DNA of 64,000 nucleotides from an uncultured Pseudomonas sp. (GTDB lineage Bacteria; Pseudomonadota; Gammaproteobacteria; Pseudomonadales; Pseudomonadaceae). The stretch covers positions 36,732-100,731 of the forward strand of contig NZ_CAMPHN010000002.1 of the NCBI RefSeq assembly GCF_946885885.1. Direction: 5' to 3'. Shown here in pieces: positions 4,604 to 31,469 of this stretch. The translations under genes and the position numbers were made by a program. The notes beneath the pieces are model-generated. The model was not told where the DNA came from. It did no database searches and worked only from the letters and a program-made list of their open reading frames with translations. How positions within the stretch are numbered: the stretch's first letter is position 1; each line of letters starts with the position of its first letter.

Positions 4604-4649
4604 TTCACAAGAAAATAACGAATGCGTATGTGTACACATGGGCATATGT
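4604..4649 (+). promoter_or_regulatory. Putative promoter and ArsR-type operator of biosynthetic block 1
   Basis: A sigma70-like pair, TTCACA (4604-4609) and TATGTG (4627-4632), is spaced by 17 bp. The -10 box lies in a perfect 12-bp palindrome, ATGTGTACACAT (4628-4639). This is followed by ACATGGGCATATGT (4636-4649), which matches 12 of 14 bases of a site overlapping the promoter of the cluster's arsR gene (21208-21221). Location and match suggest an ArsR operator blocking the block 1 promoter. The -10 box is weak and the true start point is unknown. Confidence 0.5.
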
Positions 4650-4719
4650 TGATGTATGCTGCCGTCCGCTTGTTATTGGCTCAACGAGCCTTCGGATTGT
4701 TTTGTGATGGAGTACAGAC

Positions 4720-6009
4720 ATGGACTGCCTGCCGTTAATCCGCAATAAACGCGCCGATGCCTACGAGGCGCATATCCCCGGTTCCAAATCCTTCACCAAT
4801 CGAGCGCTCATCCTCGCCGCCCATAGGCTGGGTCGCACCACCATTCATAACGCGCTGATCTGCGACGACACCTGCCTCTTGGCGAAGGCGTTGGATGCGT
4901 TCGGCGGTTTGCATGTCGAGCAGCATGCCGATTCCTTTGTGGTGGAGCGCACTTCTGAGCGTCTGACCGCCCCCGAGCTGCCGCTATTCATGGGCGGTGC
5001 CGGCACGCCCGCGCGCCTGATCCTGGCGTTTGCTTCCGGTGTCGAGGGGGAAACGCTGGTCACCGGCAATGCACGGCTTAGCGAGCGGCCGATGCAGGAC
5101 ATTCTGAAAACCCTCGGCGATATCGGCATCCGCTATGAGTGCCTGAAACTCTCCGGCTGCCTGCCCGTGCGGATTCAGGGCGGCAAAATCCGGAAGAGCG
5201 ATTGGCAGGTCAACGGCAGCGTCAGCAGCCAGTTCCTGACCAGTCTGCTGATTCATGCCTCCCAGCAGTCGCAGTTCGCCAGCCTGGACGTTCGGGTCAA
5301 GGGCCATCTGGTCTCCGAGCCTTACGTCAATATGACTCTATCGATGATGAATAGCGTGGGGCTGCGCGCCGAAAAGGTCGCCCAGGGCCACTACCGCGTT
5401 TATCCGGGGGCGGTGAACTGCCGCGATATTCGCGTGGAAGTGGATGCCTCCGGCATGTCCTATCTGTTGGCGGCCGCGGTGCTGACCCAGAGCACGGTGA
5501 GGGTTCCGGGTATCGACCTGGCATCCGCCCAGGGCGATGTCGGGCTGTTGCGCATTTTCGAGCAGATGGGCTGCGAGTTGCGCGAAGAAGACAATGCCGT
5601 GGTGCTGACGGGCAAGCCGCTCAGTGGCCTCGAAGTCGACATGGAAATCATGCCGGATGTGGTACTGACCCTGGCGGTGGTGGCCACGCAGGCGGCCGGC
5701 CCGGTGACCATCAGCAATATCGCCAATTTGCGTATCAAGGAGTGCGATCGCATCGCCGCCTGTTGCGCCGAGCTAGCGCGATTGGGCGTTAAGGTCGATG
5801 AAGGCGAGGATTGGTTGCGCGTCTACCCGGCCGACGTCTTCACGCCGGCGTGTATTCATTGCTACGACGACCATCGCGTCGCCATGGCGTTTTCGTTGCT
5901 GGGGCTGATCGCACCGGGAATTACGGTGGCGGAGCCCGCCTGCGTTTCCAAATCCTTCCCGGGCTACTGGGCCGAGATGCAGCGTTTCGTCGATTTCCAC
6001 GCAGCCTGA
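4720..6009 (+). CDS. AroA-like enolpyruvyl transferase, candidate arsenoenolpyruvate synthase
   Basis: 429 residues, full length for EPSP synthase (two inside-out alpha/beta domains, cytoplasmic). Key residues are present: PGSKS (Lys23), Arg28, S169-S170-Q171, Asp313, Glu341, Arg344, DHR with Arg386, and Lys411. From 169 on, the numbering equals that of E. coli AroA. Both the PEP site and most of the shikimate-3-phosphate contacts are therefore kept; one nearby change is Asn94 to Gly in the LFMGGAGT loop. Pseudomonas housekeeping AroA is normally fused to TyrA, so this free-standing copy is probably not it. In the Streptomyces arseno-polyketide cluster an AroA homologue is proposed to join arsenate to PEP; the neighbours here suggest the same. 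GGAG lies 7 bp before the ATG. First gene of block 1. An extra EPSP synthase remains possible. Confidence 0.75.
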   Translation: MDCLPLIRNKRADAYEAHIPGSKSFTNRALILAAHRLGRTTIHNALICDDTCLLAKALDAFGGLHVEQHADSFVVERTSERLTAPELPLFMGGAGTPARLILAFASGVEGETLVTGNARLSERPMQDILKTLGDIGIRYECLKLSGCLPVRIQGGKIRKSDWQVNGSVSSQFLTSLLIHASQQSQFASLDVRVKGHLVSEPYVNMTLSMMNSVGLRAEKVAQGHYRVYPGAVNCRDIRVEVDASGMSYLLAAAVLTQSTVRVPGIDLASAQGDVGLLRIFEQMGCELREEDNAVVLTGKPLSGLEVDMEIMPDVVLTLAVVATQAAGPVTISNIANLRIKECDRIAACCAELARLGVKVDEGEDWLRVYPADVFTPACIHCYDDHRVAMAFSLLGLIAPGITVAEPACVSKSFPGYWAEMQRFVDFHAA

Positions 6010-6048
6010 GCTGCATCCATTAATTTCAACTGAAAGGGACTTATTGTT

Positions 6049-6885: not shown

Positions 6886-7683
6886 ATGTACTGGATTACG
6901 GTCATATTGGCGCTGCTGCCCGTACTGATTGTGCTGTTCCCGGTCTGGAAGTCCTTGCCGTTCTTCGCCGGCATGCCCGCCACGGCCTGGTTGCAGCTGG
7001 ATTGGGCGCCGGATAACGGCGATTTCGGCATCGGCGTGGCACTGTTCGGTAGCCTCTATATCGTGGCGCTGGCGTTGCCGCTGTGTATCCTGCTGGGCTG
7101 GCTGATGAGCCTGCAGTTGGCGGAAAACCGCAATCACTGGTTGGCCGGTGTGACCGTGTCGGTGCTCGAAGTCTGGGTATCGATACCTTCGGTGGTGGTC
7201 GGTGTCTGGGCTTTGTCCCAGTTGGCGCCGTTGGTCCGCGCCATCGAGGGTTCCGGCTATTGTGTGCTGACCGCGGCCCTGGGGTTGACCCTGTTGATCT
7301 TCCCCACGGCCACGTTGCTGTTCTATCGCAGTTACACGGCGCATCAGTCTCGGTTCCAGGGGCTGGAAAAAACCTTCGCGCTCAATTCACTCGATCGCAC
7401 GCTGTACTTTTTCAAAAGCCAGCCAGCCTTGCTCATGTCCACCATCAGTTACTGTTTCTGCCGGCTGTTCGGCGAAACCCTGGTGGTGTTGATGTTGGCG
7501 GGCAATAGCGTGCAGGTCACCGGTTCGCCGTTCGACAGCGTGCGTACCCTGACCGCGACCATCGCCCTGGAGATGGATTACGCCAGCGGCATGCATGAAA
7601 CGGCGCTGTTCGCCTTGGCCTCGATTTGCCTGGTGGTGATTCTGCTGGTGTTGCTGCCCCAGTTCAGGAGTCGCCATGTTTAG
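6886..7683 (+). CDS. PstC-like ABC permease of the oxyanion importer
   Basis: 265-residue inner-membrane permease with about six helices and the binding-protein-dependent transport fold. The coupling region reads ALNSLDRTLYFF...LMSTISYCFCRLFGET, resembling the PstC EAA-loop segment that ends in GET. It is shorter than the long PstC of Pseudomonas housekeeping pst operons and overlaps the PstA-like gene by 8 bp. Predicted partner of the PstA- and PstB-like proteins in ATP-driven uptake of phosphate or arsenate. Specificity is inferred from context only. Confidence 0.8.
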   Translation: MYWITVILALLPVLIVLFPVWKSLPFFAGMPATAWLQLDWAPDNGDFGIGVALFGSLYIVALALPLCILLGWLMSLQLAENRNHWLAGVTVSVLEVWVSIPSVVVGVWALSQLAPLVRAIEGSGYCVLTAALGLTLLIFPTATLLFYRSYTAHQSRFQGLEKTFALNSLDRTLYFFKSQPALLMSTISYCFCRLFGETLVVLMLAGNSVQVTGSPFDSVRTLTATIALEMDYASGMHETALFALASICLVVILLVLLPQFRSRHV

Positions 7684-8455
7684 ACGGCAATGGCTGCTCT
7701 GGGCTTACCTGGCGCTGACCCTGGTTTTCATTGGTTTCTTCGTCGGACCCGTGGTGATCAAAACCACCACCTTGGGCATCGTCGTGGGTACCTTGGTGGT
7801 GACGGTGGGAGCGGCGCTGATCGCGTTCTTCCCCGCCTATCTGCTGGCCGGGGTGCTGGCCAATATCATGCCCGCGCCGCCCGCGGTGCGGGTCATGGCG
7901 CAGTTGTCTTCGTACATTCTGGCCGCCATGCCTTCGATCATTCTCGGGGTGATCGGCTTTCTGGTGTTCTGCAACCTGTTGGGGCTGGGCTGGTCGATGC
8001 TGTCGGCCATGCTCACGCTGTTGTTGCTGCTCTATCCGACCATGGTGACGGCGTTTCTTCAGGTATTGGCGCCCTTGCGTGAGCGCTACTTGCTGCATGC
8101 GAAAGCCTATGGCGTCGGGCCGCTGGAGTTCCAGTTCCGGCTGATGCTGAAGATGAACCGCAAGCAGTTATTCGAGGTTTTCGTGCTGGGCTGGGCCACG
8201 TCCTTGGGCGACACCGCCGCGGTCATGCTGACCTGCGGCGCCCTGACCGGTTTCCCAAGCAGCCTGCTGGATTCGGTACGGCTGATCAATTACCACATCT
8301 ACATTCTGGCCATGGATACGCCCGGCGGCATGATCGAGGCGAAATCGCTCTCGCTATTGCTGCTGCTCGGGCTGATTTCCATCCTGGTGATCCCCCGCGT
8401 CGCATTGACCCTTTATCAAAAAAGAACCGCACGAACCGCACAAGGATGGGCTTGA
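7676..8455 (+). CDS. PstA-like ABC permease of the oxyanion importer
   Basis: 259-residue second permease. About six hydrophobic segments start with an N-terminal helix (WLLWAYLALTLVFIGFFVG). The cytoplasmic coupling loop contains HAKAYGVGPLEFQFRLML, followed by LGWATSLGDTAAVML, corresponding to the GET-type end of the EAA loop. It begins inside the PstC-like gene and ends one base before the ATPase gene, so the four transporter genes form one translational unit. It would form the channel heterodimer with the PstC-like protein. Confidence 0.8.
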   Translation: MFRRQWLLWAYLALTLVFIGFFVGPVVIKTTTLGIVVGTLVVTVGAALIAFFPAYLLAGVLANIMPAPPAVRVMAQLSSYILAAMPSIILGVIGFLVFCNLLGLGWSMLSAMLTLLLLLYPTMVTAFLQVLAPLRERYLLHAKAYGVGPLEFQFRLMLKMNRKQLFEVFVLGWATSLGDTAAVMLTCGALTGFPSSLLDSVRLINYHIYILAMDTPGGMIEAKSLSLLLLLGLISILVIPRVALTLYQKRTARTAQGWA

Positions 8456-8456
8456 G

Positions 8457-9251
8457 ATGAATAGAGCTATCGATTTCTCGTTCGAACATTTCCTCGATCA
8501 CAGTCCGAACCACGGCATCGAAATCCGTGATTTGCATGTCAGCGCGGGCAGCCGCCGGATTCTCGAAATACCCCAGCTGCGCATCCCGAAAACCGGGGTG
8601 ATCGCCATGATGGGGCCGTCCGGCTGCGGCAAAAGCACGCTGCTCAAGGCGCTGGCCAGCCTGCATGACGACTCCATACGGGTGAATGGCCATATCGATG
8701 TGCGCTGTTGTGCCGAGGAAGTCAGGATTCCCTCCTCGCGCTTCGCCATGATCTGGCAGCAACCCACCGTATTTCCCTGTTCGGTGTACGACAACCTGAA
8801 GATTCCGTTGCGTAAACGCGGTATTTCCCGTGGCGAATGGCCCGCGCAGATGAGTCATGCCCTTGAGCAGACCGGGCTGTTGGCGGAGCTGGGCAGCGCT
8901 TGGATGCGGGTCAATGCGCAAACCCTTTCCGGTGGCCAGCAGCAGCGCCTGTGCATCGCCATGGGGCTGCTGAAGAACGCCGACATCCTGCTGTTCGACG
9001 AGCCCACCTCGGCGCTCGATCCGATTTCCACGGAAAAGATCGAACGCATCATGGCCCGCCTGGGTCGGGAAAAGCTGGTGCTGCTGGTGACCCACAGTGT
9101 CGGCCAGGCCAAGCGTCTAAGCGAATACACCGCGATGTTTTGTTGCGTGGACGGTGTGGGGCAGCTGTGCGAATACGGCGCCACTCAACAGATCTTTAAA
9201 ATGCCGCGCGCGGAACAGAGCCGGCGCTTCATTCAGTTGGAGGTGGGTTGA
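8457..9251 (+). CDS. PstB-like ABC ATPase of the oxyanion importer
   Basis: 264-residue ABC ATPase. Walker A is GPSGCGKST (about residues 57-65), the Q-loop is in MIWQQPTVFP, the signature is LSGGQQQR, Walker B is [13 protein letters not shown] and the switch His is in VTHSVG. It drives the PstC/PstA-like permeases. No phoU follows; the next gene is the mutase-like enzyme, overlapping by one base. This is unlike a Pho-regulon pst operon and implies the importer serves the biosynthetic pathway. Confidence 0.85.
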   Translation: MNRAIDFSFEHFLDHSPNHGIEIRDLHVSAGSRRILEIPQLRIPKTGVIAMMGPSGCGKSTLLKALASLHDDSIRVNGHIDVRCCAEEVRIPSSRFAMIWQQPTVFPCSVYDNLKIPLRKRGISRGEWPAQMSHALEQTGLLAELGSAWMRVNAQTLSGGQQQRLCIAMGLLKNADILLFDEPTSALDPISTEKIERIMARLGREKLVLLVTHSVGQAKRLSEYTAMFCCVDGVGQLCEYGATQQIFKMPRAEQSRRFIQLEVG

Positions 9252-10732
9252 TGAACGCGGAGAAAGGCGTCTTGCTGATTCTCGACGGCATGGGCATGGC
9301 GCCGGAGCAGGGGCGCGCGGCCAGCGCCACCACCGCCGAGCACATGCCCTATGTGCATAGCCTGATGCAGCGGCATGGCCACGCCCTGTTGCAGGCCTCG
9401 GGCAGTGCCATTGGCCTGGATGAAGGCGTTGCCGGCAATTCCGAGGTCGGCCATCTGACCATCGGCTCGGGCGAGGTGTTGCAATCGACCTTGGCGCGGG
9501 TGCGCGAGGGTTATCACAGCGGCGTCTGGCTGCAATCGCCGGTGTGGCAACGGCTGGCGCAGAAACAGGCCGTCCATGTCGTCGGCCTGCTCTCCGACGC
9601 CGGTGTGCACGCCCATTGGCAGACCCTGAGCATGGCCGCGCAAGTCGCGCGCCAGGCGGGTTTCGCCAAGGTCTATCTGCACCTGCTGTTGGACGGCGTG
9701 GACAGCCAGGCCGGCAGTGCACCGGCGATTCTCGATGAGCTGCGAGCGGCCCTCGAAAGCCTGCAGGACTCCTCTGTGGTGCTGTCCAGCGTCATGGGCC
9801 GCAAGTGGGGCATGGACCGCAGCGGTAATTGGGCGCTCACCGACGAATGCTGCCGAGCCCTGATGGATGCCAGTCGCGACAATGTCTTCAGTCCCGACGC
9901 GTTGCGCGAGCACCTGGCCGGCGACAGCGAAGCCAGCTTCCCGCCGGCCTATTGCGCCGGCGGCCAGTCCATCGCTGCGGGCGATACGGTGCTGCTGACC
10001 CTGCACCGCGCGGATCGGATTTCCCAATTGGCCAAGCGCCTGAACGAGCACTGCCGCGTGTTGTCGCTGATCGAACTCAAGCAGGACGCGGTGCCGGTGG
10101 ACGATGTGTTCTTTCCCACCCGTGCCTACGACAACGGCCTGGTCCGGCAGTTGAAGCGCCTGGGCTACCGCACCACGCGTCTGGCCGAACAGTGCAAGTT
10201 CCCCCATGTCACTTATTTCATGGATGGCATGAGCCCGGATAGCGAGGCGGAAACCATCATGATTCCGACCATCAGCGACGATGAAATCCGCCTCAATCCG
10301 CTGATGTCGATCCAACAAATGACCGACACCCTGGAGACCTTGCTGGCCAGCCGCGACGGTTCCCATGCGCTGATCGTCAACATCCCCAACCTCGATCAGG
10401 TGGGGCACACCGGCGATCTTGAATTGACCGCCCGCGCGGCCCGTTGCGTCGATGAGCTGGTGAGCAAGGTGGTGACCTGGTGTGAGCTGCATCAATGGCA
10501 ACTGGCGATCACCGCCGACCACGGCAACGCCGATCGCATGCGCGATGAAAACGGTAAAGCGCTGGGTTCGCACTCCGCCAACCCGGTGCCGCTGTTGCTG
10601 ATCGATCGGCACAAGCCGGTCGAGTGGGCCGCCCACCAAGGCACGCTGGCGAATGTCGCGGCGAGTTTCCTCGGCCTGCTCGGCCACACCGCGCCCAGTC
10701 ATTTCGAGCCGGCACTGATCGCTATCGCTTGA
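9251..10732 (+). CDS. iPGM-like alkaline-phosphatase-superfamily enzyme, candidate arsenoenolpyruvate mutase
   Basis: 493 residues, homologous to cofactor-independent phosphoglycerate mutase (GpmI). Metal and nucleophile residues are kept: Asp12, Ser64 in GNSEVGH, Asp382/His386 (LDQVGH), Asp423-His424 (ADHGN) and His441. The substrate pocket differs. The GRD motif of true iPGM is GVD here (Val150 for the phosphoglycerate-binding Arg), and FFFSGGRE is YFMDGMSP. The housekeeping gpmI is present at the right end of the window with the usual FFFSGGRE, so this is a diverged paralogue. In Streptomyces the equivalent enzyme is proposed to rearrange arsenoenolpyruvate to arsonopyruvate. ATG 9251 overlaps the ATPase stop (TGATG); a TTG at 9248 is the alternative. 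Confidence 0.75.
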   Translation: MNAEKGVLLILDGMGMAPEQGRAASATTAEHMPYVHSLMQRHGHALLQASGSAIGLDEGVAGNSEVGHLTIGSGEVLQSTLARVREGYHSGVWLQSPVWQRLAQKQAVHVVGLLSDAGVHAHWQTLSMAAQVARQAGFAKVYLHLLLDGVDSQAGSAPAILDELRAALESLQDSSVVLSSVMGRKWGMDRSGNWALTDECCRALMDASRDNVFSPDALREHLAGDSEASFPPAYCAGGQSIAAGDTVLLTLHRADRISQLAKRLNEHCRVLSLIELKQDAVPVDDVFFPTRAYDNGLVRQLKRLGYRTTRLAEQCKFPHVTYFMDGMSPDSEAETIMIPTISDDEIRLNPLMSIQQMTDTLETLLASRDGSHALIVNIPNLDQVGHTGDLELTARAARCVDELVSKVVTWCELHQWQLAITADHGNADRMRDENGKALGSHSANPVPLLLIDRHKPVEWAAHQGTLANVAASFLGLLGHTAPSHFEPALIAIA

Positions 10733-10766: not shown

Positions 10767-13700
10767 ATGAATCGCCTTATCCCCCGTCACGCCGACTACC
10801 GCAATATGTTGGAACTGGTAGAGGACCGCGCGAGCGTCCTGGCGGATAAACCGCTGTATACCTTCCTACGCGACAACCTGGACGAAGCCGGGGTGATGAG
10901 CTTCGACGGGTTGCGGGCGCGGGCGATGAGCCTGGCGGCGGAGCTACAGCAGCTGGCGCAGCCGGGCGAGCGCGTACTGCTGTTGTTCCCCGCCGGCTTG
11001 GCCTATATCGAGGCGTTTTTCGCCTGCCTGTATGCTGGCTTGGTAGCGGTGCCGGCCTATGCGATCCAATCGCCGAAGGACCACGACCGGCTGAATTCGA
11101 TCGTCCGCGATGCCGGCGCGAAATTGATTCTGACCACCCAGGAACAGGAGCCGGCCACGGCGGCCTGGTTGGCGCGCGGCGAAATCCATGCGCCGCTGGT
11201 GCTGTGCAGCGACACCCTGGAACGCCGCCATCAATGGCAGCAACCGGATATCGGCCCGGACACCCTGGCGTTTCTGCAATACACCTCAGGCTCCACCGGC
11301 AGCCCCAAGGGCGTGATGGTCAGCCACCGCAACCTGCTGCATAACTCCGAACTGAGTTACCGCGCCTTCAATCACAGCGATGCGACCGTCGGCGCCAGTT
11401 GGTTGCCGCCCTATCACGACATGGGCTTGATCGGCGGCGTTCTGCAACCATTATTCGCCGGGATTCCGGTGTACCTGATGTCGCCGATGACCTTCCTCAA
11501 GCGGCCGATCCGCTGGCTGGAAACCATCAGCCGTTATGGCGTCAGCAGCAGCGGCGCGCCCAACTTCGCCTATGATTTTTGCGTGCGGCGGGTCAGTGAA
11601 GCCCAGCGCGATAGCTTGGATCTGTCGTCCTGGCGGGTCGCCTTCAATGGCGCCGAACCCATTCACCATGAGACCCAGCGCCGTTTCGCCGACTATTTCG
11701 CCTCGGCGGGTTTCCGTCCGCAAGCGATGGTGCCTTGCTACGGCCTGGCGGAAGCCACGCTGCTGGTGTCGGCCAATAGCTTCGATGCCGGCCCGCTGAG
11801 CTGCGCGGTGGATGCCGCAGCGCTCGAGGGCGGCGTGGGGCTGGCGCAGTACCCGCTGGAACCGCTGATGGCCCTGGAGTCGGCCGTCGACAGCGCTCGG
11901 CAGATTCTGATCAGCAGCGGCGAAATCGCCTATGAGCACTGCGCGATCGTCAATCCGGAAACATCGATAGCTTGTCCGGATGGCAGCGTCGGCGAGATCT
12001 GGTTGCAAGGCTCGAGCGTCGCCCAAGGCTATTGGAACAAACCGCAGGAGACCCGCGAAACCTTCGCCGCGCGTATCCAGGGCCAGGACGGCGAGTACCT
12101 GCGCACCGGTGACCTGGGTTACCGGCTCGGCGATCAACTGATCGTCACCGGTCGCCTGAAAGAGCTGATCATCATCAACGGCCGCAACCTCTACCCGCAG
12201 GATCTGGAACGCGGCCTGCAACAAAGCGACGAGCGCCTGCGCGAAGGCCACGGCGCAGCGGTGGGTTTGCTCGATAGCGAATCGGGCACCGAGCGCCTGG
12301 TGATCATTCAGGAAGTGGAGCGCAAGATCGGCGACGAGGAGACCTTGCGCGGCCTGGCGGATGGTATCAACGCCTGTTTGCAGGAGCGTTTCCAGGTCAC
12401 CCCTTATGCGACTCTGCTGATCGCCGCCTCCAGTCTGCCGAAGACCACCAGCGGCAAAATCCAGCGGCGCAAGGCGTTGCAGCAGATGAACGAGGGTAGC
12501 CTCAACCTGCTCTACGACTCGCGCGAGCGCGCCGCGCTGCAGGCGGCCGCGCCGGTGACGACACAAGCGTCGGAGCGGGTTGCGGCACCTTCGCTCGTGT
12601 CCTTCAGCCAGCGCCAATGGGAAGCGCAACTCGCGGTACTGGTCAAAGCCTATATGCCGGAAGGCACCAGCCCGGAACGCGATCAGCCGTTCCAGTCGAT
12701 GGGCCTGGATTCCAAGCAGGCGGTGAGCATCGTCGGCGAACTGGAGGACCTCTACGGGCGCAGCCTCAACGCCACCCTGTTGTTCGATTACCCCTCGATC
12801 GCAGCGCTCGCCGCCTATTTGGCTGGTGTCGACAGCCAGGCAGGCCTAGCGGAAAGTCGGCCCGTCGCCACTGCGGAGCCCCTGGCGATTGTCGGCATGG
12901 CCTGCCGTTTCCCCGGCGCGCAGGACCTGGACGGTTTCTGGCGTCTGCTGCTAGGCAAGGAAAACGCCATCCAGGAAATCCCCGCCGCACGCTGGGATTG
13001 GCGAGCGGTGCAGGGCGAAAACGGCGAAGCGGGCACTTCGCGCTCCGCCTATGGCGGCTTTATCGAGGATGTCGAGGGCTTCGACGCGGCGTTCTTCGGC
13101 ATTACGCCCAAAGAAGCGCGCTTGATGGACCCGCAGCAGCGCATCCTCCTGCAAACCGTTTGGCATGCGCTGGAGGACGCGGGCCTGTCGGTGGACACGC
13201 TGCGCGGCCGACCGGTCGGGGTTTATGTCGGCGCCTCGACCAACGATTACTCGCGACTGCTGGCGAACACCGCGGATGCGGTCTCGCCGTGGTCCGGCAC
13301 CTCCAATGCACTGTGCATCCTGGCCAACCGCGTGTCCTATCTGCTGGGCTTCAACGGCCCGAGCATTACCAGCGATACCGCTTGCTCGTCGTCGCTGACC
13401 TCGTTGCATCTGGCAGCTCAGGGCCTGCGCGCCGGGGAAAGCGAGCTGGCCGTGGTGGCCGGGGTGAATTTGATGCTGATTCCCGAGCTCCATGTGATTT
13501 TCTCCCAGGCCGGGATGCTCGCGCCGGATGGCCAATGCAAGACCTTCGATGACGCCGCCGACGGCTATGTGCGCGGCGAGGGTTGCGGCGTGGTGGTGCT
13601 CAAACCCCTGGCCCAGGCACAACGGGATCGCGACCGTATCTACGGCGTGGTCGACGCCAGCCAGATCAACCAGGACGGCGCCAGCAATGGCCTCACCGCG

Positions 13701-18041: not shown

Positions 18042-18043
18042 CC

Positions 18044-21204: not shown

Positions 21205-21234
21205 TTGACATGTGCATGTGTGTGCATGAATAAT
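21205..21234 (+). promoter_or_regulatory. Putative promoter and operator of arsR1 / export-tailoring block
   Basis: TTGACA (21205-21210) and AATAAT (21229-21234), spaced by 18 bp, form a good sigma70 promoter 18 bp before the arsR ATG. The spacer contains ACATGTGCATGTGT (21208-21221), matching 12 of 14 bases of the site at 4636-4649 in front of block 1. Overlap of operator and promoter fits ArsR-type autorepression relieved by As(III) or an organoarsenical. Confidence 0.55.
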
Positions 21235-21251: not shown

Positions 21252-21575
21252 ATGAGCGAATTGCACCAGATTTTCGATTCAAAGTTGTTCAAGGTCCTTA
21301 GCGAGCCGGTGCGCATCGACATTCTCAAGGTGTTGGCGCAGCACGGCCAGATGGACATCGCAGAGATCACCGGCTACTTGCCGCAGGATCGCTCCGTGGT
21401 TTCGCGGCACCTCAGCGTCATGCACGACGTGGGGGTGCTGAAGGCGGAAAAGCGCGGCAGGCACATATTTTACGAACTCGACGGGCTGGCAATTTTGCAC
21501 CGTTTGGAAGGCATCGCTAAAGCGATAAGGCATTATTTCGAGAGCTGCTGCCCCGAAGCGCTCAAGGACGAGTAA
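21252..21575 (+). CDS. ArsR/SmtB-family repressor, cluster regulator
   Basis: 107-residue winged-helix repressor: FKVLSEPVRIDILKVL (helices 1-2), recognition helix region DRSVVSRHLSVMHDVGVL, and the wing RGRHIFYEL. It lacks the ELCVCDL arsenite site of classical ArsR but ends with an adjacent Cys pair (Cys99-Cys100, FESCCPE) that could bind trivalent arsenic. Family members dissociate from DNA on metalloid binding. Its position at the head of block 2 and the shared operator-like sites suggest it controls both blocks. RBS GGAGAG lies just before the ATG. Confidence 0.85.
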   Translation: MSELHQIFDSKLFKVLSEPVRIDILKVLAQHGQMDIAEITGYLPQDRSVVSRHLSVMHDVGVLKAEKRGRHIFYELDGLAILHRLEGIAKAIRHYFESCCPEALKDE

Positions 21576-24027: not shown

Positions 24028-24792
24028 ATGAAAAGCGTTCTCTCCGTATTACTGATGCTCGCACTGCCCGCTGTGGCCAGTGCGCAGGACGCCCGGGAAC
24101 TGATGGACAAGGTCAACAACCGCTATGTCGGCGATGACGCGCTCAGCGAAGTCACCCTCGAGTACACCAGCAAAAGCGGCAGCAGCAAGGAATACCAGCT
24201 GCGCATCTGGAACATCGAGGAAAGCGCCGGCAACAAGACGCTGCTCAAATACACCGCGCCGAACTTCATGCGCGGCAGTGGCGTGCTGGTGCATGGCGAG
24301 GACAAACAAGAGACCTTGCAGTGGTTGTATCTGTCGCAGGCGGCGAAGAAGGAAGCGCGCAAAATCGCCAGTTCCGAGCGCGGTAGGCCACTGTTCGGCA
24401 CCGACATCTTCTACGTGGATATCGAAGCCAAAGCCACTGCGGATTTCACCTACCAACACCTGCGCGATGAAGTGCTCGACGGCATCGCCTCGGTCGTGGT
24501 CCAGGCCGTGCCGAACAAGCCGGACTATCCCTACGAGCGGACGATTTCCTGGGTCGACCCCGAGCGCTTGCTGGAGCTGAAAGTCGAGTACTACCAGGAC
24601 GGCAAATTGCTCAAGACCCTGATCGCCGAACAGACCGAACAGATCGAAGACGTCTGGACCGTGACGCGCTCCAAGGTGGTGAATGCCAAGCAAGGCTCCA
24701 GCACGGTGATGAACATCGACAAGATCGATTACAACCTCGGGTTGCAGGTCGATCAATTCAGCTTCAAGGCGTTAACGGCCAGAGAGATTTGA
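24028..24792 (+). CDS. Outer-membrane lipoprotein-sorting (LolA-like) periplasmic protein
   Basis: 254 residues with a signal peptide (about residues 1-20, ending VASAQ). It resembles the LolA-like 'outer membrane lipoprotein-sorting protein' family often encoded next to MMPL pumps: RELMDKVNNRYVGDDALSE start, LRIWNIEESAGNKTLLKY, and FMRGSGVLVHGED strands of a half-barrel. Predicted to shield a lipid moiety while carrying it across the periplasm. Three bases separate it from the exporter gene. It is not the housekeeping LolA, which is shorter and encoded elsewhere. Confidence 0.8.
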   Translation: MKSVLSVLLMLALPAVASAQDARELMDKVNNRYVGDDALSEVTLEYTSKSGSSKEYQLRIWNIEESAGNKTLLKYTAPNFMRGSGVLVHGEDKQETLQWLYLSQAAKKEARKIASSERGRPLFGTDIFYVDIEAKATADFTYQHLRDEVLDGIASVVVQAVPNKPDYPYERTISWVDPERLLELKVEYYQDGKLLKTLIAEQTEQIEDVWTVTRSKVVNAKQGSSTVMNIDKIDYNLGLQVDQFSFKALTAREI

Positions 24793-24795: not shown

Positions 24796-26055
24796 GTGTC
24801 GATGAGAGAGGGATTGCTCGCACTGCTGTTATCGGCACCTGTATTGGCCAGTGCCGGATGGAATCACACCGGCACCGTCAGTCTGCGCCTGGATGGACGC
24901 GAGGCGGGCGAATCCGCTTTGCTGGGCCGCGCCGCCGTGGAAACCTCGGGCGAACTGTCCGAGCGTTTGACCTTGCAAATGGAAGTCGAAGGCAACGGCG
25001 AAACCTCGGTGGAGGGTGCCAGTGCTGAGCTGCGCACGCTGCTGTTGAACTGGCAGGTACACGACGCCGTGCACCTGTTCGCCGGTTGGCAGCAGCAGGT
25101 ATGGGGGCGGGCCGATGAAGTGAATCCGCTGGATTTCGCCTTCGCCGAGGACACCCGCTGGTATTACCTGGAGCCACGTGCGCAACGCAAATTGTCGCGC
25201 TTGTCCGCCGGCACGCGCATCGAGTGGGGCGATTCCAGCCTGGCGCTGTTTTATTTCCCGGAGTCCTCGCGCAACCACTTGGCCGACGACGATAGCATCT
25301 GGTGCGAGCGGGCCTGCGATTTTGCCGACCCCGATTTTCAGCGTGAGCAATTCGCCGCGTTGGGCTTTGCCGTCAATACCTCCAAGGCATCCGCGCCGCG
25401 GCACGAGTGGGCGGGACGCTTCACCAGTCGCGCGGGCGGGCTGGACTACGGCGCCGCGGTGTATTACGGCACCGACCACCGCCAGCGGGTGGAACGGACA
25501 TTCGTCGCGCCCGGCGTGGTGGCGCTGGAGACCAAGGAATACCAAAGCCTGTCTTATGGTCTCGATGCGGCCTACGCGCTCGGCGATGTCGTGGCCCGCG
25601 CCGAGCTGGCGCGTTACCAGGACGTGAAGCTGTATATCGATCCCGAGTTGCCACGCTATCTGGCCGACGACGACGGCCTGACGGAAACCGATGCGACCGC
25701 GGCGATCCTGTCGTTGGATTACACCGCCCCTGGCGATATTTATCTGAACGTCCAATACCAGGATGTCTGGCTGGGCGAGCCCGAAGACGAGGTGATCCTG
25801 CCGCGGGAGTTGAATCTGGCCACGTTTCAGATCGCCAAAACCTTCTATGAGCCGGAGGTCAAGATCGAATGGACCACGCTTTACGACATAGGCAAAGAAG
25901 GCGGTTTCAGCAAGCTGGAAGCGCGTTGGCAGATGGACATGCAATGGTTGTTATCCGTCGGCTGCCTGGTTTTCGACGGTGAGGACGGTGCCGAGGATTA
26001 CGGCGCCTTTCGAAAAAACAACAGCGTTTATCTAGCGACGCAATATCAATTCTAG
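24796..26055 (+). CDS. Predicted outer-membrane beta-barrel protein
   Basis: 419 residues, function not recognised with certainty. A signal peptide is visible (cleavage after PVLASA). The mature protein is rich in alternating aromatic strands, and the last residues are YLATQYQF with a C-terminal Phe, typical of BAM-assembled barrels. It resembles DUF1302-type proteins often found with MMPL and LolA-like genes. GTG 24796 was chosen for its spacing to AGAGAG; ATG 24802 is the alternative. Likely the outer-membrane station of the export route. Confidence 0.7.
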   Translation: MSMREGLLALLLSAPVLASAGWNHTGTVSLRLDGREAGESALLGRAAVETSGELSERLTLQMEVEGNGETSVEGASAELRTLLLNWQVHDAVHLFAGWQQQVWGRADEVNPLDFAFAEDTRWYYLEPRAQRKLSRLSAGTRIEWGDSSLALFYFPESSRNHLADDDSIWCERACDFADPDFQREQFAALGFAVNTSKASAPRHEWAGRFTSRAGGLDYGAAVYYGTDHRQRVERTFVAPGVVALETKEYQSLSYGLDAAYALGDVVARAELARYQDVKLYIDPELPRYLADDDGLTETDATAAILSLDYTAPGDIYLNVQYQDVWLGEPEDEVILPRELNLATFQIAKTFYEPEVKIEWTTLYDIGKEGGFSKLEARWQMDMQWLLSVGCLVFDGEDGAEDYGAFRKNNSVYLATQYQF

Positions 26056-26064: not shown

Positions 26065-26973
26065 ATGGCCAGTTTATTGTCGAAAGTCTATGTGAAGATG
26101 AAAGAGCTACCGCGCAAGCAATCGGCCCGATTGCTGCCGCTGAAACGCCGTGAACTGCGCGCCGTATTGAAACTGTTCTATGAAGAAGGCTGGGTGGATT
26201 TCACCCTGGCGGATCTGGAGTTCATGTACAACATGAGCCCGGATACCTGCTTCAAGTTCGCCATGGACGATGGCGTGATGATCGGCGTTACCTTCGCGCT
26301 GCTGCTGGATAACGGCGTGTGTTACCCGAATTCCAGCGTGATCGCGGAGAAGTACCGTAACCAGGTCAAGTTTCACGGCGAGGTGCTGAAGTACGCCGAT
26401 GCACTGAAGAAAATCGCCAAGTACGAAATCATGTACGCGGCCCATTGGCTGGTCGACCTGTACAAGGATGGTATGGGGTATCGGCCGGCGGGCAAGATCA
26501 AACGTCTGCTGTTGACCCGCGTGGCTAACGCCAGCGCTGAAACCTTCGAGCCGCTCAATCAGGGCAACCTCGAGCAAATCGCCGAGTTTCTGCAGCCGGT
26601 CTATAACAGCGAGCGCCGCTCCATTCTGCGGCATGCCCTGGAACTGGAGTTCAAGACCGCATGCGTAGTGCGCGACGGCCAAGTCGCAGGCTTCGCCATG
26701 CGCCGCGCCTTGCCCAAATACGACCAGATCGGGCCGGTGGTCAGTGCCGACCCGGCGCTGGCAGCCGCGCTGATCGCCCAGCTGCTCGAGCCCGATAACC
26801 AGCGTCCGGTGATCATCGACGGCGATATCCAGCGCTTGCCCGCCTTGTTACGCCAAGCCGGTATCGACTTTACCGAGAGCGAAGTCGAGATGACCAAAAT
26901 GGTGCGCGGCGACGAATCGTTCCACGAGAACGAAAACATGATCCACGCGATTTACTCCCATTACCTGAGTTGA
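26065..26973 (+). CDS. GNAT-superfamily acyltransferase-like protein
   Basis: 302 residues, resembling two-domain GNAT proteins: an N-terminal region with FTLADLEFMYNMSPDTCFKFAMDDGVMIGVTFALLL and a C-terminal GNAT-like half with ACVVRDGQVAGFAMRR and GPVVSADPALAAALIAQLL (as in Acetyltransf_18-type domains). No signal peptide. In this cluster it could N-acylate an amine such as 2-aminoethylarsonate or accept an acyl chain from a PKS ACP; this is inference. It lies 9 bp after the barrel gene and overlaps the region of the next start. Confidence 0.6.
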   Translation: MASLLSKVYVKMKELPRKQSARLLPLKRRELRAVLKLFYEEGWVDFTLADLEFMYNMSPDTCFKFAMDDGVMIGVTFALLLDNGVCYPNSSVIAEKYRNQVKFHGEVLKYADALKKIAKYEIMYAAHWLVDLYKDGMGYRPAGKIKRLLLTRVANASAETFEPLNQGNLEQIAEFLQPVYNSERRSILRHALELEFKTACVVRDGQVAGFAMRRALPKYDQIGPVVSADPALAAALIAQLLEPDNQRPVIIDGDIQRLPALLRQAGIDFTESEVEMTKMVRGDESFHENENMIHAIYSHYLS

Positions 26974-26978
26974 ATGTC

Positions 26979-27821
26979 ATGGAACGGTTTCAACTTAGCG
27001 TGGAAGAGCCGGCGCCTGCCGGAGCGATTGGATTATTGCTCCCGGTGCCTCCCGAAACGCACTTTCAGCAACCGATTGCCGCGCGCTTATTACACGGCGG
27101 CGATGAAGTAACGCTGCTACACGAGGCGCGCCAAGGGCAAGCCGCTTTTGTCCTGAAGGTGCGGGGCGATTCGCGTATCGAACAGCCGCTGGTGGAATAC
27201 CGCATGGCGTTGCAGAGCGCCGCCGCCAATCCCCGGCACTATGGGCTCGCCAATGGCGCCAGTCTGGCCATTACCGAAGATGTACTGGGTTGCGACGAGC
27301 GCATCTTCGCCGGCATGTCGCATGTCAGTCAGCTCGAGCGTTTGCGTATCGTCGTCGACTATCTGACTGAGCACTTCGACTATATCCACCACGAAGATGA
27401 ACTGAACCGCGGGGTACTCAGTTGCACGCACTTGCGTGGCGACTGTCTGGATATCAATACCGCTTTGATGAAGTTGCTCGGCCTGCATGACGTGGAGTCC
27501 GCGTACTACATCGGCTGCTACTTCGAGCGCGGTAGCGCGCCCAGGGTGGACGACTGGCATTGCTGGGTCTCGACCCGGATCGACGGCATCCAGGATTGGG
27601 ATATCGCCCATCACATCAAGCGCCGCCTGGGCCAGGTCGAGCCGGCATTGAATCCGGTCGCGGGTACGCGTTTCGCCTTGAGCTGCGGCCGCGATCTGGC
27701 ATTCGAATACGACGAGCGACTCTGGCGCATTTCACACCTGGGCGCGCCTATCTGGCTGCTCGCCGACGGTAGCCACCGGCAAGCTGTTTTCACCGCCCAA
27801 CACCTGATGAAGGACATCTGA
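26979..27821 (+). CDS. Transglutaminase-fold protein, candidate acyl-release or amide-forming enzyme
   Basis: 280 residues with the core of the transglutaminase-like superfamily. The triad candidates are Cys156 (GDCLDINTA), His194 (DWHCWV) and Asp208 (WDIAHH). No signal peptide. Transglutaminase homologues form amides from ACP-bound acyl chains in some polyketide pathways (AdmF in andrimid synthesis). Both PKSs here lack a thioesterase and a transaminase-like gene is nearby, so I infer a possible role in condensing the acyl chain with an amine. ATG 26979 preferred; a TTG at 26970 would overlap the GNAT stop. A protease role is also possible. Confidence 0.65.
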   Translation: MERFQLSVEEPAPAGAIGLLLPVPPETHFQQPIAARLLHGGDEVTLLHEARQGQAAFVLKVRGDSRIEQPLVEYRMALQSAAANPRHYGLANGASLAITEDVLGCDERIFAGMSHVSQLERLRIVVDYLTEHFDYIHHEDELNRGVLSCTHLRGDCLDINTALMKLLGLHDVESAYYIGCYFERGSAPRVDDWHCWVSTRIDGIQDWDIAHHIKRRLGQVEPALNPVAGTRFALSCGRDLAFEYDERLWRISHLGAPIWLLADGSHRQAVFTAQHLMKDI

Positions 27822-27836: not shown

Positions 27837-28979
27837 GTGCTCGATACGGAGTGGTTTGGAAATGTGTTGGCGGAACAAGGCTTTGCTTTTTACAGCGGGG
27901 TTCCCTGTTCCCTGCTGAAGCCGCTGATCAATTACGGGATGTCGCGGCAACGCTACCTGGCGGCGGTGAACGAAGGCGATGCCATCGCCCATTGTGCGGG
28001 CGCCTGGATCGGCGGCAGCAAAGCCGTGGTGATGATGCAGAACTCGGGTTTGGGCAATGCGGTGTCGCCGCTGACTTCGCTGAACTTCCCGTTTCGGATT
28101 CCCGTGCTCGGCTTCGTCAGTTTGCGTGGCGAGCCAGGTGTGGCCGATGAGCCGCAGCACGAGCTGATGGGCCAGATCACCGGCGAGTTGTTATCGACGA
28201 TGCGGGTTCGCTGGGACTTTCTCAGCAATGAGCGCGAAGAGTGTCTCGAGCAGGTTCGCACCGCTAATGCCTGCATCGAGGCTGGGGAGAGTTTTTTCTT
28301 CGTGGTCCGTAAGGGCGCGTTCGCGCCTTTCGAACTGGATGCCAAAGCGCTGCCGACAGGTGCCCACCAGCGCGTCGAAAAAAGTCTCGGCGGCGAGCTG
28401 CATAAGCGCATGGACGTATTGGCGCAACTGCGCGAGGCGGTGGACCACCGCACCGTGCTGCTGGCGACCACCGGCGTCACCGGGCGCGAGCTGTATCAAC
28501 TGGGCCATCAGGCCAACCAGTTTTACATGGTCGGCTCCATGGGCTGTATCAGCGCATTGGCCCTGGGCCTGGCACAGGTGCGGCCCGATCTCAAGGTGAT
28601 CGCCATCGACGGCGACGGCGCCCTGCTGATGCGTATGGGCAACCTGGCGACACTCGGCTCCTACGCCGCGCCGAACCTGATGCACCTGCTGCTGGACAAC
28701 GGCGTGCACGAGTCCACCGGTAACCAGCAGACGGTATCGAAACACATCGATTTCGCGGGTATAGCGGCCGCATGTGGCTACGCGTCGGTGTTGACCACCG
28801 ATGACCCCGCCGAGCTGGTGCGTTATTGCTCGGCTTGGCGCACGCAGCCGTCGAGCAGTTTTATCCATCTGAAAATCAAGCACGGTCATCCGCACGACTT
28901 GGTGCGGCCGGTGGAAAAGCCGGCGGTGCTGTTGCAGCAGTTCATGGCCAATCTCGACCACTTGAGGCATTTATCCTAA
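27837..28979 (+). CDS. Phosphonopyruvate-decarboxylase-like ThDP enzyme, candidate arsonopyruvate decarboxylase
   Basis: 380 residues, full length for Ppd. The N-terminal pyrimidine-binding half has the ThDP-activating Glu near 46 (VNEGDAIAHCAG) and QNSGLGNAVSPLTSLN. The C-terminal half has the cofactor motif GDGALLMRMGN (about 259) running to LLLDNG (near 286), the GDG-N pattern. Ppd turns phosphonopyruvate into phosphonoacetaldehyde, but the window has no PEP phosphonomutase to supply it. With the AroA- and iPGM-like enzymes, the arsenic analogue arsonopyruvate is the likely substrate, as proposed for Streptomyces. GTG start at 27837 preceded by AAGGAG. Confidence 0.82.
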   Translation: MLDTEWFGNVLAEQGFAFYSGVPCSLLKPLINYGMSRQRYLAAVNEGDAIAHCAGAWIGGSKAVVMMQNSGLGNAVSPLTSLNFPFRIPVLGFVSLRGEPGVADEPQHELMGQITGELLSTMRVRWDFLSNEREECLEQVRTANACIEAGESFFFVVRKGAFAPFELDAKALPTGAHQRVEKSLGGELHKRMDVLAQLREAVDHRTVLLATTGVTGRELYQLGHQANQFYMVGSMGCISALALGLAQVRPDLKVIAIDGDGALLMRMGNLATLGSYAAPNLMHLLLDNGVHESTGNQQTVSKHIDFAGIAAACGYASVLTTDDPAELVRYCSAWRTQPSSSFIHLKIKHGHPHDLVRPVEKPAVLLQQFMANLDHLRHLS

Positions 28980-30139
28980 TGGACGCCCCTATCAAGAATC
29001 CCTGTTTGCCCCTGCGCCGTCTGCTGTTCACCCCAGGGCCCGCGACCACCACCGACAACGTGAAACTGGCGTTGATCACCGAAGACATGAGCCCGCGCGA
29101 TCCGCGTTTCGTGAAAACGCTGAGCGCTTTGCGCGAACGCATCACAGCGATTGCCGGCTCGCCCGAGCGCTATGCCACGGTATTGCTCAGCAGTTCGGGC
29201 ACCGGCGCGGTGGAAGCCATGTTGCTCGCCGCTGCGCGTCAGCCCGGTAAAATCCTGATCATCGATAACGGCGCCTATGGCCAACGCATGGCCGAAATGG
29301 CGCGGACTTTCGGCATCGCCCACGCCGTTTGGACATCCGCGCCTACCGCGCCGCTCGACTTGCAGGCATTGCGCGCATACTTGGCGGCGCAGACGGAATC
29401 CTTCGCCTACCTGGCCGTGGTGCACCATGAAACCACCACCGGGTTGCTCAACGACATTCACGCCCTCGGCGACCTGGCGAGCGAGCACGGCACGCGCTTG
29501 CTGGTCGACGCCATGAGTTCCTTCGCGGCGTTGCCCACCGACATGGACGCTGTGCACTGCGACATGCTCGCCTCGAGCGCCAACAAGAACCTGCAAGGCA
29601 TGGCCGGCGCAGCCTTCGTGATAGTGCGACGTGCTCTGGTCGACGAACTGATGGCCTTCCCCGCGCGCGCGTTCTATCTGGATATCCTCGCCGAATTCAA
29701 AGCCGTGGAAGCCAGCGGGCAGGGCCGTTTCACCCTGCCGGTGCAAATTCTGGCGGCGCTGGATCGGGCGTTGAGCGAGTTCGAAGAGGAAAGCCGCGCG
29801 CTGCGCTTGCAACGTTATCAAGCCCATTGGGGCGTGCTGTACGAGCGTCTGGCCGCATTGGGCTTCAGCTTTCTGCTCGAACCCGGAATCCAGAGTCGCC
29901 TGCTGCTGGCGGTGGTCGAGCCGCAATGGCCGGGCTTCGACTTCGAGGAACTGGTCGGCCGCTTGAAACGATCCGGTATCGATATCTATCCGGGCAAGCT
30001 GCCCAATGTCCGCTATTTCCGTCTTTGCACGGTGGGCGATCTGACGCCCGCGGACATTCAATTCACCCTGGCGCGGATCGAGGAATACCTCGAGTCCCTG
30101 GCTGTCGAAGCCGCGCTGCCCAACATGGAGGTTGTGTAA
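28979..30139 (+). CDS. 2-aminoethylphosphonate-transaminase-like enzyme, candidate arsonoacetaldehyde aminotransferase
   Basis: 386-residue class V PLP aminotransferase related to PhnW. Near the N-terminus is LLFTPGPATTTDNVK, then LSSSGTGAVEAM (phosphate-cup region), VVHHETTTGLLND, LVDAMSSFAALP and the PLP lysine in SSANKNLQG (Lys203). PhnW interconverts phosphonoacetaldehyde and 2-aminoethylphosphonate. Directly coupled to the decarboxylase (TAATG overlap), it would convert arsonoacetaldehyde to 2-aminoethylarsonate, providing an amine for amide formation. The true phosphonate reaction cannot be excluded by sequence. The frame is open upstream, but 28979 is the start consistent with the coupling. 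Confidence 0.8.
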   Translation: MDAPIKNPCLPLRRLLFTPGPATTTDNVKLALITEDMSPRDPRFVKTLSALRERITAIAGSPERYATVLLSSSGTGAVEAMLLAAARQPGKILIIDNGAYGQRMAEMARTFGIAHAVWTSAPTAPLDLQALRAYLAAQTESFAYLAVVHHETTTGLLNDIHALGDLASEHGTRLLVDAMSSFAALPTDMDAVHCDMLASSANKNLQGMAGAAFVIVRRALVDELMAFPARAFYLDILAEFKAVEASGQGRFTLPVQILAALDRALSEFEEESRALRLQRYQAHWGVLYERLAALGFSFLLEPGIQSRLLLAVVEPQWPGFDFEELVGRLKRSGIDIYPGKLPNVRYFRLCTVGDLTPADIQFTLARIEEYLESLAVEAALPNMEVV

Positions 30140-31180
30140 ATGATCAAGCCGGAAATCGCCCTGAAACCGGAACCGAGCAATCTGCTCAGGGTCGTCGCCA
30201 CCGATACCGCTTTGTTGTTGATCGCCGGCACCTTGCTGATCGTTGGCCTGGTGTCCTTCGAGCAACTGACCAAGACCCTGGCGTTCACCTTCGAAACCGT
30301 CACCTTCCTCCTGCCGTTCCTGCTGTTCGCCTTCGCCCTGGCCGGCTTTATGAAGGCCAGCAGCGCCGAGGTGATCATCACCCAGGTGTTCCGCGGCCGG
30401 GCCATCGCCATGGTGTTCGCCGCGGCCTTCTTCGGCGCCTGGTCGCCGCTGTGCTCCTGCACCGTAATCGCGATGATCGCCGTGTTGCTGCGTGCCGGTA
30501 TGCCGCTGTCCGCGGTGATGGCGTTCTGGATCTCGTCGCCGATCATCAGCCCGGACATGTACATCTATACCGCTGCGCTGCTGGGCACCGAATTCGCCAC
30601 GGCGAAGCTGGTCGCGGCGATGCTGATGGGCATCTTCGCCGGTTTCACGGTGCTGTTCCTGGAGAAACTGGGCGGCTTCAAGAATCCCTTGAAGCACCAC
30701 GACTCGAAGAAGATGAGCCTGGGCGATGCGAAGAAACCGGTGTGGAAATTCTGGCGCGAGCCGGCCCGCGTCGAAGCCTTCTGGGCGGAGGTCAAGGACG
30801 TTACCTGGCGCCTCGGCAAGTGGATGATCTTCGCCTTTATTTTGGAGAGCCTGATGATCGCCTATATACCCGCCGGCCAAGTTGGCGAATGGGTGGGCAA
30901 TAGTACCTGGGCCATTCCTCTGGCCGTGATCGTCGGCATGCCCGCGTACGTGAACGGCGTCGCCGCGGTGCCGCTGATTCAAGGGCTGTTGTCGATGGGC
31001 ATGAGTCAACCGGCGGCCATGGCGTTTCTGGTCGGCGGTTCGGTGACCAGCATTCCGGCGATGATGGCCGTGTTCCCGTTGGTCAAGTTCAGGGTCTTTA
31101 TGACCTACATCGCCATCGCATTGATCTCGTCGATGCTGATCGGCTACCTCTACCAGTTGTACCTGCTGTCATTCAACTGA
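30140..31180 (+). CDS. ArsP-type (DUF318) permease, candidate organoarsenical exporter
   Basis: 346-residue inner-membrane permease with about 8-10 helices in two halves joined by a hydrophilic loop (about 185-225). The family hallmark GAWSPLCSCTVIAM contains Cys105 and Cys107; the second half has GMPAYVNGVAAVPLIQGLL and LVGGSVTSIPAMMAVFP. This permease family includes ArsP, which exports trivalent organoarsenicals such as methylarsenite and reduced roxarsone. It begins immediately after the transaminase stop. Predicted to protect the producer by removing reduced intermediates. Cys-dependent substrate binding is inferred from the family. Confidence 0.8.
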   Translation: MIKPEIALKPEPSNLLRVVATDTALLLIAGTLLIVGLVSFEQLTKTLAFTFETVTFLLPFLLFAFALAGFMKASSAEVIITQVFRGRAIAMVFAAAFFGAWSPLCSCTVIAMIAVLLRAGMPLSAVMAFWISSPIISPDMYIYTAALLGTEFATAKLVAAMLMGIFAGFTVLFLEKLGGFKNPLKHHDSKKMSLGDAKKPVWKFWREPARVEAFWAEVKDVTWRLGKWMIFAFILESLMIAYIPAGQVGEWVGNSTWAIPLAVIVGMPAYVNGVAAVPLIQGLLSMGMSQPAAMAFLVGGSVTSIPAMMAVFPLVKFRVFMTYIAIALISSMLIGYLYQLYLLSFN

Positions 31181-31217
31181 ACCTGGCATAGGCCAGACAC
31201 AAGGAAAGGAGAAATTC

Positions 31218-31469
31218 ATGGGACTCGTATTCAAATTGGAAGGCTTGTCGGAGCGCGAAAACCTGATCGCCCAACTGGTCGCTTGCGTGGTGCTGGAAGG
31301 CCAGGACAGCGGCGTTTTCGGCGAAACCCGCGATGCCCTGAAACTACCGGCCAACTGCGTGGGCGATATCGAGAAGGCGCTGTCGAAACTGGAGAACCAC
31401 CTCGCCAGCACCGATGACAGCTTGTCCGATTTATTGGCCAACGCCTCGAAGTCGACCTGCTGCTCCTAG
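31218..31469 (+). CDS. Small CC-tailed protein of unknown function
   Basis: 83 residues, not recognised. It is acidic and helical with no signal peptide. Cys occurs at 23, 47 and as an adjacent pair Cys81-Cys82 at the extreme C-terminus (KSTCCS), echoing the CC pair near the end of the cluster's ArsR. A strong GGAAAGGAG RBS precedes the ATG, so it is probably expressed. Position as last gene of block 2, after the ArsP-like permease, suggests a role linked to arsenic, for example binding As(III); this is a guess from position and Cys content. Confidence 0.6.
   Translation: MGLVFKLEGLSERENLIAQLVACVVLEGQDSGVFGETRDALKLPANCVGDIEKALSKLENHLASTDDSLSDLLANASKSTCCS

Follow-up and report, generated by a model that had tools for sequence, protein, structure and literature searches.

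A predicted arsonate biosynthetic gene cluster, probably for an envelope lipid, in an uncultured Pseudomonas sp.

What would be made by a gene cluster that combines a homologue of 5-enolpyruvylshikimate-3-phosphate (EPSP) synthase and a homologue of the cofactor-independent phosphoglycerate mutase (iPGM) with a Pst-type importer, polyketide synthases (PKSs), and ArsR- and ArsP-like genes? The question is raised by a 64,000-nucleotide stretch of DNA (the window; contig NZ_CAMPHN010000002.1, positions 36,732 to 100,731) from an uncultured Pseudomonas sp. Positions 4720-31469 of the window hold eighteen consecutive genes on the + strand. An original prediction, made from the sequence, had named all but the small last one, in order and on one strand; each of the named genes is borne out as a long open reading frame (ORF), and nearly all of the names are confirmed by Pfam and NCBIfam, the PstC-like permease and the putative barrel being without a family match. 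The cluster would convert arsenate to 2-aminoethylarsonate, which would likely be N-acylated with a polyketide-extended fatty acid and exported to the envelope (probability roughly 0.65). The path to an organoarsenical is supported by context and is highly probable, and the exact lipid is a prediction with about an even chance of being right. The evidence is drawn from which genes are present, the families they belong to, where they lie together, which residues are conserved and how the proteins are predicted to fold. From these, and partly from published Streptomyces knockouts, we infer all of the substrates and the presence of arsenic or of a lipid in the product.

The genes assigned to the head group are:

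4720..6009, + strand: AroA/EPSP-synthase-like enzyme, predicted arsenoenolpyruvate synthase (BsnM-type); Pfam PF00275 (EPSP_synthase), 346.5 bits
6049..6825, + strand: PstS-like binding protein, predicted to bind arsenate, with GRAT where the usual loop is SGT; Pfam PBP_like_2 and motif
6886..7683, + strand: PstC-like permease; no Pfam match
7676..8455, + strand: PstA-like permease; Pfam BPD_transp_1
8457..9251, + strand: PstB-like ATPase; Pfam ABC_tran
9251..10732, + strand: iPGM-like mutase of the type A subfamily, predicted arsenoenolpyruvate-to-arsonopyruvate mutase; Pfam iPGM_N and Metalloenzyme
27837..28979, + strand: phosphonopyruvate-decarboxylase-like (Ppd-like) enzyme, predicted arsonopyruvate decarboxylase; TIGR03297 (Ppd) at 401.7 bits (cut-off 312.5), Pfam TPP_enzyme_C
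28979..30139, + strand: 2-aminoethylphosphonate (2-AEP) transaminase-like enzyme, predicted to make 2-aminoethylarsonate; Pfam Aminotran_5, searched as 28982-30139

In the proposed route, the Pst-type importer with its altered anion loop would take up arsenate. With EPSP as donor, the AroA-like enzyme would attach an enolpyruvyl group to arsenate and so form arsenoenolpyruvate. The type A mutase would then shift the arsono group from oxygen to carbon, which is the step that would form the C-As bond of arsonopyruvate. The Ppd-like enzyme would decarboxylate arsonopyruvate to arsonoacetaldehyde, and the pyridoxal phosphate (PLP) enzyme would aminate the aldehyde to 2-aminoethylarsonate.

The pairing of AroA with the mutase recurs in other genomes. 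A reference-genome scan with a generic iPGM pattern returned at least 79 loci, and this list of relatives is incomplete. Of the ten type A loci among them, eight have AroA in the flanking DNA, and the contig ends first in the other two (L001 and L003); matches to PstS, PstC and PstA are present at 8/10. AroA also adjoins the mutase at seven of the other 69 loci listed, which belong to Paenibacillus, one record of Chloroflexota and five of Actinomycetota. These are labelled type B, meaning that AroA adjoins the mutase outside type A. The remaining 62 listed loci gave no AroA match at 1e-8 in the flanking DNA read. The original prediction had read AroA, iPGM, Ppd, PKS and ArsR together as an arsonopyruvate route and had proposed a search for genomic co-occurrence. 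That search places AroA with the mutase at 15 loci and Ppd near the pair in 8/15 genomes. The proposed route matches the logic of bisenarsan biosynthesis and stands up in the co-localisation, tree and residue comparisons.

The AroA-like protein scores 377.8 bits against the NCBIfam aroA model (cut-off 287.25). In the AroA tree, it and 16 other mutase-linked AroAs fall on one side of a 100/99 branch, and 19 others fall on the other side; L107-L109 are excluded from this tree (no match at 1e-5). The linked clade divides into a Gram-negative/planctomycete branch (100/100) and a second branch of Actinomycetota, Bacillota and Chloroflexota (99/95). The tree thus gives good support to a common origin of the AroA partner in these pairs. 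Sixteen of 17 EPSP synthase active-site positions (E. coli numbering) are kept in all 17 linked AroAs, and N336 is retained in 13 and replaced by S in four. Retention of this site fits EPSP as the enolpyruvyl donor to arsenate. Position 101 was considered as a sign of glyphosate tolerance and rejected, as it is L, F or I in the linked AroAs and L or F in most others. Ten of the 15 genomes having the pair contain a further AroA that passes the cut-off. A conjugative Caballeronia plasmid of the IncP type carries an unlinked aroA (L113:5929-7242) close to transposases of IS1071 and ISPps1.

The mutase, whose start is most likely the ATG at 9251 (a correction), forms a family of its own. It falls below the equivalog cut-off of the housekeeping iPGM model TIGR01307 (295.8 versus 330.65 bits), and Val replaces the Arg of its DGRD motif. 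The best 120 of 385 relatives (E <=1e-60) are 41-98% identical to it, and the best iPGM on plasmid records is 33.5% identical (among the best 20 of 39 matches). No match was found in the viral contigs scanned. In the mutase tree, type A forms one group (100/100) and type B another (100/99); the housekeeping set is 18 of the 62 other loci, and L058 belongs to neither type. In place of the DGRD Arg, 10/10 type A loci have V, T or I, and R stands there in 0/121 aligned sequences; 7/7 type B mutases keep the Arg. The Ser nucleophile, the ligands of the metals and the other Arg residues inspected are unchanged in the type A mutases (L003 is truncated, and its last three are unreadable), and Cys316 is invariant among them. 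Rows beyond 17 in alignment A1 (P0094 and others) were left out or kept as listed.

The binding protein of the importer carries a signature of its own. In its loop, the canonical xS before G/A is GR in 13 of 14 linked PstS proteins (L004 differs), or in 15 of 16 with L174 and L203 included. PstS-family proteins elsewhere in the same genomes lack GR in 20 of 22 cases (30 of 41 matches fetched). The two unlinked GR-type proteins come from the L004 and L008 genomes, both of which are without a good PstS beside the pair. The linked PstS is a candidate arsenate-selective binding protein. The PstC-like permease shares 41-56% identity with its positional counterparts in L001, L002, L003, L005 and L009. 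The importer had been regarded as an addition not known from Streptomyces; this does not hold, because AroA-mutase pairs of Streptomyces and Actinomadura have Pst-type genes nearby too.

Ppd over the cut-off is found in 8/15 genomes having the pair, each within ~11 kb of it, and in 0/14 controls. The aminotransferase, with its start corrected to the ATG at 28979, lies just under the cut-off of the PhnW-type model TIGR03301 (344.9 versus 360.8 bits). The nearest solved sequence is 6pd1 (275 bits), the aminotransferase half of a nucleotidyl transferase/aminotransferase chain, followed by the 2-AEP aminotransferase 1m32 (250 bits). A nucleotidyl transferase/2-AEP transaminase of the PntC type serves the 2-aminoethylphosphonate route. 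These nearest sequences fit 2-aminoethylarsonate as the product of the aminotransferase.

Record titles, together with one search of a phylum, place the core pair in Pseudomonadota, Planctomycetota, Actinomycetota, Bacillota and Chloroflexota; as several of the records are metagenome bins, any single placement may be mistaken. L003, with an Omnitrophota title, was considered as a further phylum and rejected, as its mutase is almost the gammaproteobacterial one and the record is probably mis-binned. G902 was found by the mutase model alone and has PstSCAB-like genes, AroA, mutase, aminotransferase and Ppd together. Among 369 genomes sampled from the class of G001, G001 alone lies above a gap (773 bits, next 374). 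In a sample of the phylum of G002, 3/343 genomes match, namely G002 and G004 (known) and G902 (new), and G008 stands alone among 337 genomes sampled from its class. The family of G180 (345 genomes) gave no match at E 1e-115 in a search run without a positive control.

Arsenic genes accompany several of these pairs. In L016 (9192-15880), a methyltransferase lies between AroA and the mutase, after which come a transglutaminase-fold gene, ArsR, and two genes with arsenite-oxidase-subunit domains, which we take to be AioAB. This gene order would also suit an arsenite-to-organoarsenical route at one locus. L005 has an ArsP-like gene (49%), a transglutaminase-fold gene, AroA, Pst, the mutase, an ATP-grasp ligase and a class I aminotransferase. 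Its ATP-grasp gene is of the L-amino acid ligase type and follows the mutase together with the aminotransferase (L122:1627-4143), an arrangement that might give an arsonoalanine peptide. On the linear plasmid of Streptomyces sp. NBC_01708 (L112), the aroA-gpmI pair carries a housekeeping-enzyme annotation and is surrounded by Pst genes, six genes of the ArsR family, ArsC, ACR3, ArsO and a permease. The Paenibacillus locus has AroA, the mutase, a PHO4 transporter, an ATP-grasp gene, an aminotransferase and Ppd, with ArsB, an ArsC-type low-molecular-weight phosphatase fold, a glyoxalase-fold gene and a small phosphatase. In L049 (Saccharomonospora), a PKS directly follows the pair, and a Ppd-like gene is present as well, which is the bsn pattern. 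A Streptomyces iPGM-like gene in L058 (10001-14410), outside both clades, lies near a Ppd-like gene with no AroA match and is perhaps part of another C-P or C-As route.

The genes assigned to the acyl chain and to export lie between the mutase and Ppd:

10767..18041, + strand: FAAL-ACP-KS-AT-DH-KR-ACP polyketide synthase; Pfam AMP-binding/KS/AT/DH/KR/PP-binding, catalytic motifs, HAFH in AT
18038..21142, + strand: KS-AT-ACP polyketide synthase; Pfam, scanned as the longer ORF 17567-21142, start set by a 4-nt overlap
21631..24024, + strand: MMPL/RND-type exporter; Pfam MMPL
24028..24792, + strand: LolA-like periplasmic protein; Pfam LolA_like
24796..26055, + strand: putative outer-membrane barrel; weak assignment from a signal-like N-terminus and C-terminal YQF only, with no Pfam or NCBIfam match
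26065..26973, + strand: tandem GNAT with an N-myristoyltransferase-like predicted fold, predicted to act in N-acyl transfer and chain release; Pfam PF18014 (Acetyltransf_18)
26979..27821, + strand: transglutaminase/NAT-fold Cys-His-Asp enzyme; start from the length of the close homologue P0121, searched as 26970-27821

The FAAL domain would load a fatty acid, and two malonyl-type modules would extend the chain. No thioesterase was found in the second PKS (18038-21142). The myristoyltransferase-like GNAT would transfer the acyl chain to the amine, so that no thioesterase would be needed. The structure model of this GNAT (pLDDT 87), which belongs to a small sequence family, has fold matches that resemble N-myristoyltransferase (NMT). 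The likeness is one of fold: there is no match to the NMT sequence family, and Acetyltransf_18 is the sole match at E 0.001. On the strength of this model, the GNAT is a candidate maker of N-acyl-2-aminoethylarsonate. The MMPL, LolA-like and putative barrel proteins would then take the product outward.

The transglutaminase core falls below the Pfam cut-off (20.6 versus 23 bits). C159, H197 and D211 are invariant in 27 sequences of the family, and the structure model and fold matches agree. Alignment A3 omits P0145, a protein of 233 aa that is joined to an ArsR-type HTH domain and covers 33% of the query. The family also has three invariant cysteines, one of which adjoins the catalytic His. 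The gene had been counted among those of the cluster, and it is present; it is not polyketide-specific, since it lies beside the pair in L005 and L016 without a match to the window PKS in the DNA read.

The remaining genes and sites concern regulation, efflux and the extent of the unit:

21205..21234, + strand: promoter-like TTGACA-18-AATAAT before ArsR1; 11/12 positions, a consensus match and not proof
21252..21575, + strand: ArsR-family regulator (ArsR1) with Cys-Cys near the C-terminus; Pfam HTH_5 and sequence
30140..31180, + strand: ArsP-like permease; Pfam PF03773 (ArsP_1), no NCBIfam cut-off reached
31218..31469, + strand: 83-aa protein with TCCS (..STCCS) at its C-terminus, the last gene of the block first described
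31731..32153, + strand: second ArsR (ArsR2) with an ELCVCDL motif; Pfam HTH_5
32268..32771, + strand: small phosphatase of the DSP/PTP type with the motif HCKGGSGRTG; probably belongs to the unit

The ArsR proteins would sense arsenite, and the ArsP-like permease would export organoarsenicals. Spacing within the eighteen-gene run is -8 to 60 nt, except for 109 nt ahead of ArsR1. The interval from ArsP to ArsR2 is 550 nt and contains the small ORF 31218-31469, for whose product no convincing homologue was found in the relatives' loci DNA compared. The unit probably reaches 32771, taking in ArsR2 and the small phosphatase, because the phosphatase also flanks four relatives. It is 35-36% identical to the gene directly after the mutase in L001, L002 and L009, which are mutual close kin, and 31% identical over 80 residues to the gene preceding AroA in L031. 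On the left flank are glycosyltransferase-like genes and an acyltransferase. Beyond ArsR2 and the phosphatase are HglS and 2-aminoadipate transaminase (- strand) and AmaA (+ strand). This right-hand gene set is typical of Pseudomonas and points to a probable host among the Pseudomonadaceae, as does hisB, which is 88.6% identical to a Stutzerimonas stutzeri record and is the most informative of the short matches to 194 plasmid records; a sample at class level gave 70% identity at best. An imperfect 17-nt inverted repeat (76%) ahead of AroA (window 4617-4650) is a possible regulator site. A common ArsR operator was sought by eye and by computation, and nothing firm emerged.

Several findings weigh against the arsonolipid interpretation. 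The type A relatives' DNA compared gave no match to the PKS, GNAT, MMPL, LolA-like or barrel genes, and the single PKS match among relatives adjoins the type B pair of L049. PF03773 and MMPL are broad families. The EPSP-site residues are mostly kept in other AroAs too and are no mark of the linked clade. The AroA and mutase comparisons were made without the S. lividans bsn genes, BsnM included. A sister relation of type A to the Streptomyces-type mutase is only a possibility, a single clade of types A and B being not rejected (approximately unbiased test, p-AU 0.424); on the same result we dropped the idea, invited by the tree, that two mutase lineages had been recruited independently. GR-type PstS was not seen in G009, G010 and G012 among the fetched matches (30 of 41). 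No Ppd over the cut-off was found in the genomes of L002, L005, L009, L016, L047, L053 and L057, and the downstream route therefore varies. PEP (phosphoenolpyruvate) mutase over the cut-off is found in 0/15 pair genomes and in 0/14 controls too; weaker matches occur in 11/15 pair genomes (best 137.5 bits, cut-off 319.55). The cluster genes scanned contain no PEP mutase. Lastly, the transglutaminase-fold enzyme is a rival for chain release.

One alternative concerns chain release. The head group would still contain arsenic, release would be by the transglutaminase/NAT-fold enzyme, as with the amide synthase of geldanamycin, or by ester formation, and the GNAT would be otherwise engaged. We consider this unlikely. 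Somewhat less likely again is the main rival, a phosphonate cluster, in which the iPGM-like protein would be a non-homologous PEP mutase that forms phosphonopyruvate, with an N-acyl 2-aminoethylphosphonate lipid as the product. Ppd and AEP transaminase are the standard phosphonate pair. Enzymes resembling both are in the cluster, and its importer is of the phosphate type. A dedicated AroA would be pointless in a route from PEP, yet AroA adjoins the mutase at 8/10 type A loci with its EPSP site kept, and genes for ArsR, ArsP-like proteins, ArsC, ACR3 and a predicted arsenite oxidase turn up repeatedly. We regard a third alternative as very improbable, in which the AroA-like protein would serve as a spare EPSP synthase that tolerates a drug, and the other genes would form a lipid cluster with no connection to it, next to an ars operon. 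NCBIfam does call the protein AroA, and spare aroA genes occur on plasmids; yet it partners a mutase at 15 loci, with Ppd in 8/15 genomes and a single AroA clade.

In the literature searched, the Streptomyces route is the sole S-adenosylmethionine (SAM)-independent way to a C-As bond. The arsonolipid interpretation of the cluster is of this known kind, SAM-independent arsonate biosynthesis. New as far as the literature search reached are the Gram-negative/planctomycete branch with a mutase subfamily of its own, the signature in PstS, the amine as head group and the set of genes for lipid export. Records of the core pair in five phyla suggest that the making of arsenic metabolites is wider than Streptomyces. 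It is a tentative proposal, somewhat short of an even chance, that a complete arsenic counterpart of phosphonate metabolism exists, with its own arsenate importer, an EPSP-driven mutase for the C-As bond and tailoring enzymes for 2-aminoethylarsonate, and that this Gram-negative lineage purposely builds arsenic into an envelope lipid made by a PKS primed with a fatty acid and an NMT-like acyltransferase. The cluster and its relatives supply ready gene sets, a mutase residue signature and a candidate arsenate-selective binding protein. These make testable the formation of the C-As bond, the discrimination of arsenate from phosphate in transport, and the origin of some bacterial arsenolipids.

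The closest known system is the bsn cluster of Streptomyces lividans and S. coelicolor, which makes bisenarsan. It encodes homologues of EPSP synthase, phosphoglycerate mutase and phosphonopyruvate decarboxylase and a PKS, and EPSP is proposed as the enolpyruvyl donor to arsenate (PMC12159101). The Pseudomonas cluster shares these homologues, a PKS and the logic of arsenic regulation (PMC12159101). It differs in its Gram-negative host, separate mutase subfamily, NMT-like GNAT and envelope export set. The bsn head group is 2-hydroxyethylarsonate, whereas the aminotransferase here predicts an amine head group; the bsn chain is 2,4,6-trimethyl-2-nonenoyl, whereas a FAAL starter and malonyl-type extension are predicted here (PMC12159101). 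NMT and other tandem GNATs are ~12% identical to the cluster GNAT, whose donor would be a PKS-bound acyl chain. The 2-aminoethylphosphonate (phosphonolipid) route is similar in its Ppd-like step followed by an AEP-transaminase-like step; among the cluster genes scanned there is no PEP mutase and no cytidylyltransferase, and AroA and the mutase stand instead. The arsinothricin and arsenosugar pathways, as described in the same article, form bacterial C-As bonds through SAM-dependent or radical SAM enzymes (PMC12159101). No enzyme of either kind was found among the cluster genes scanned, and the C-As bond would here be formed by the mutase.

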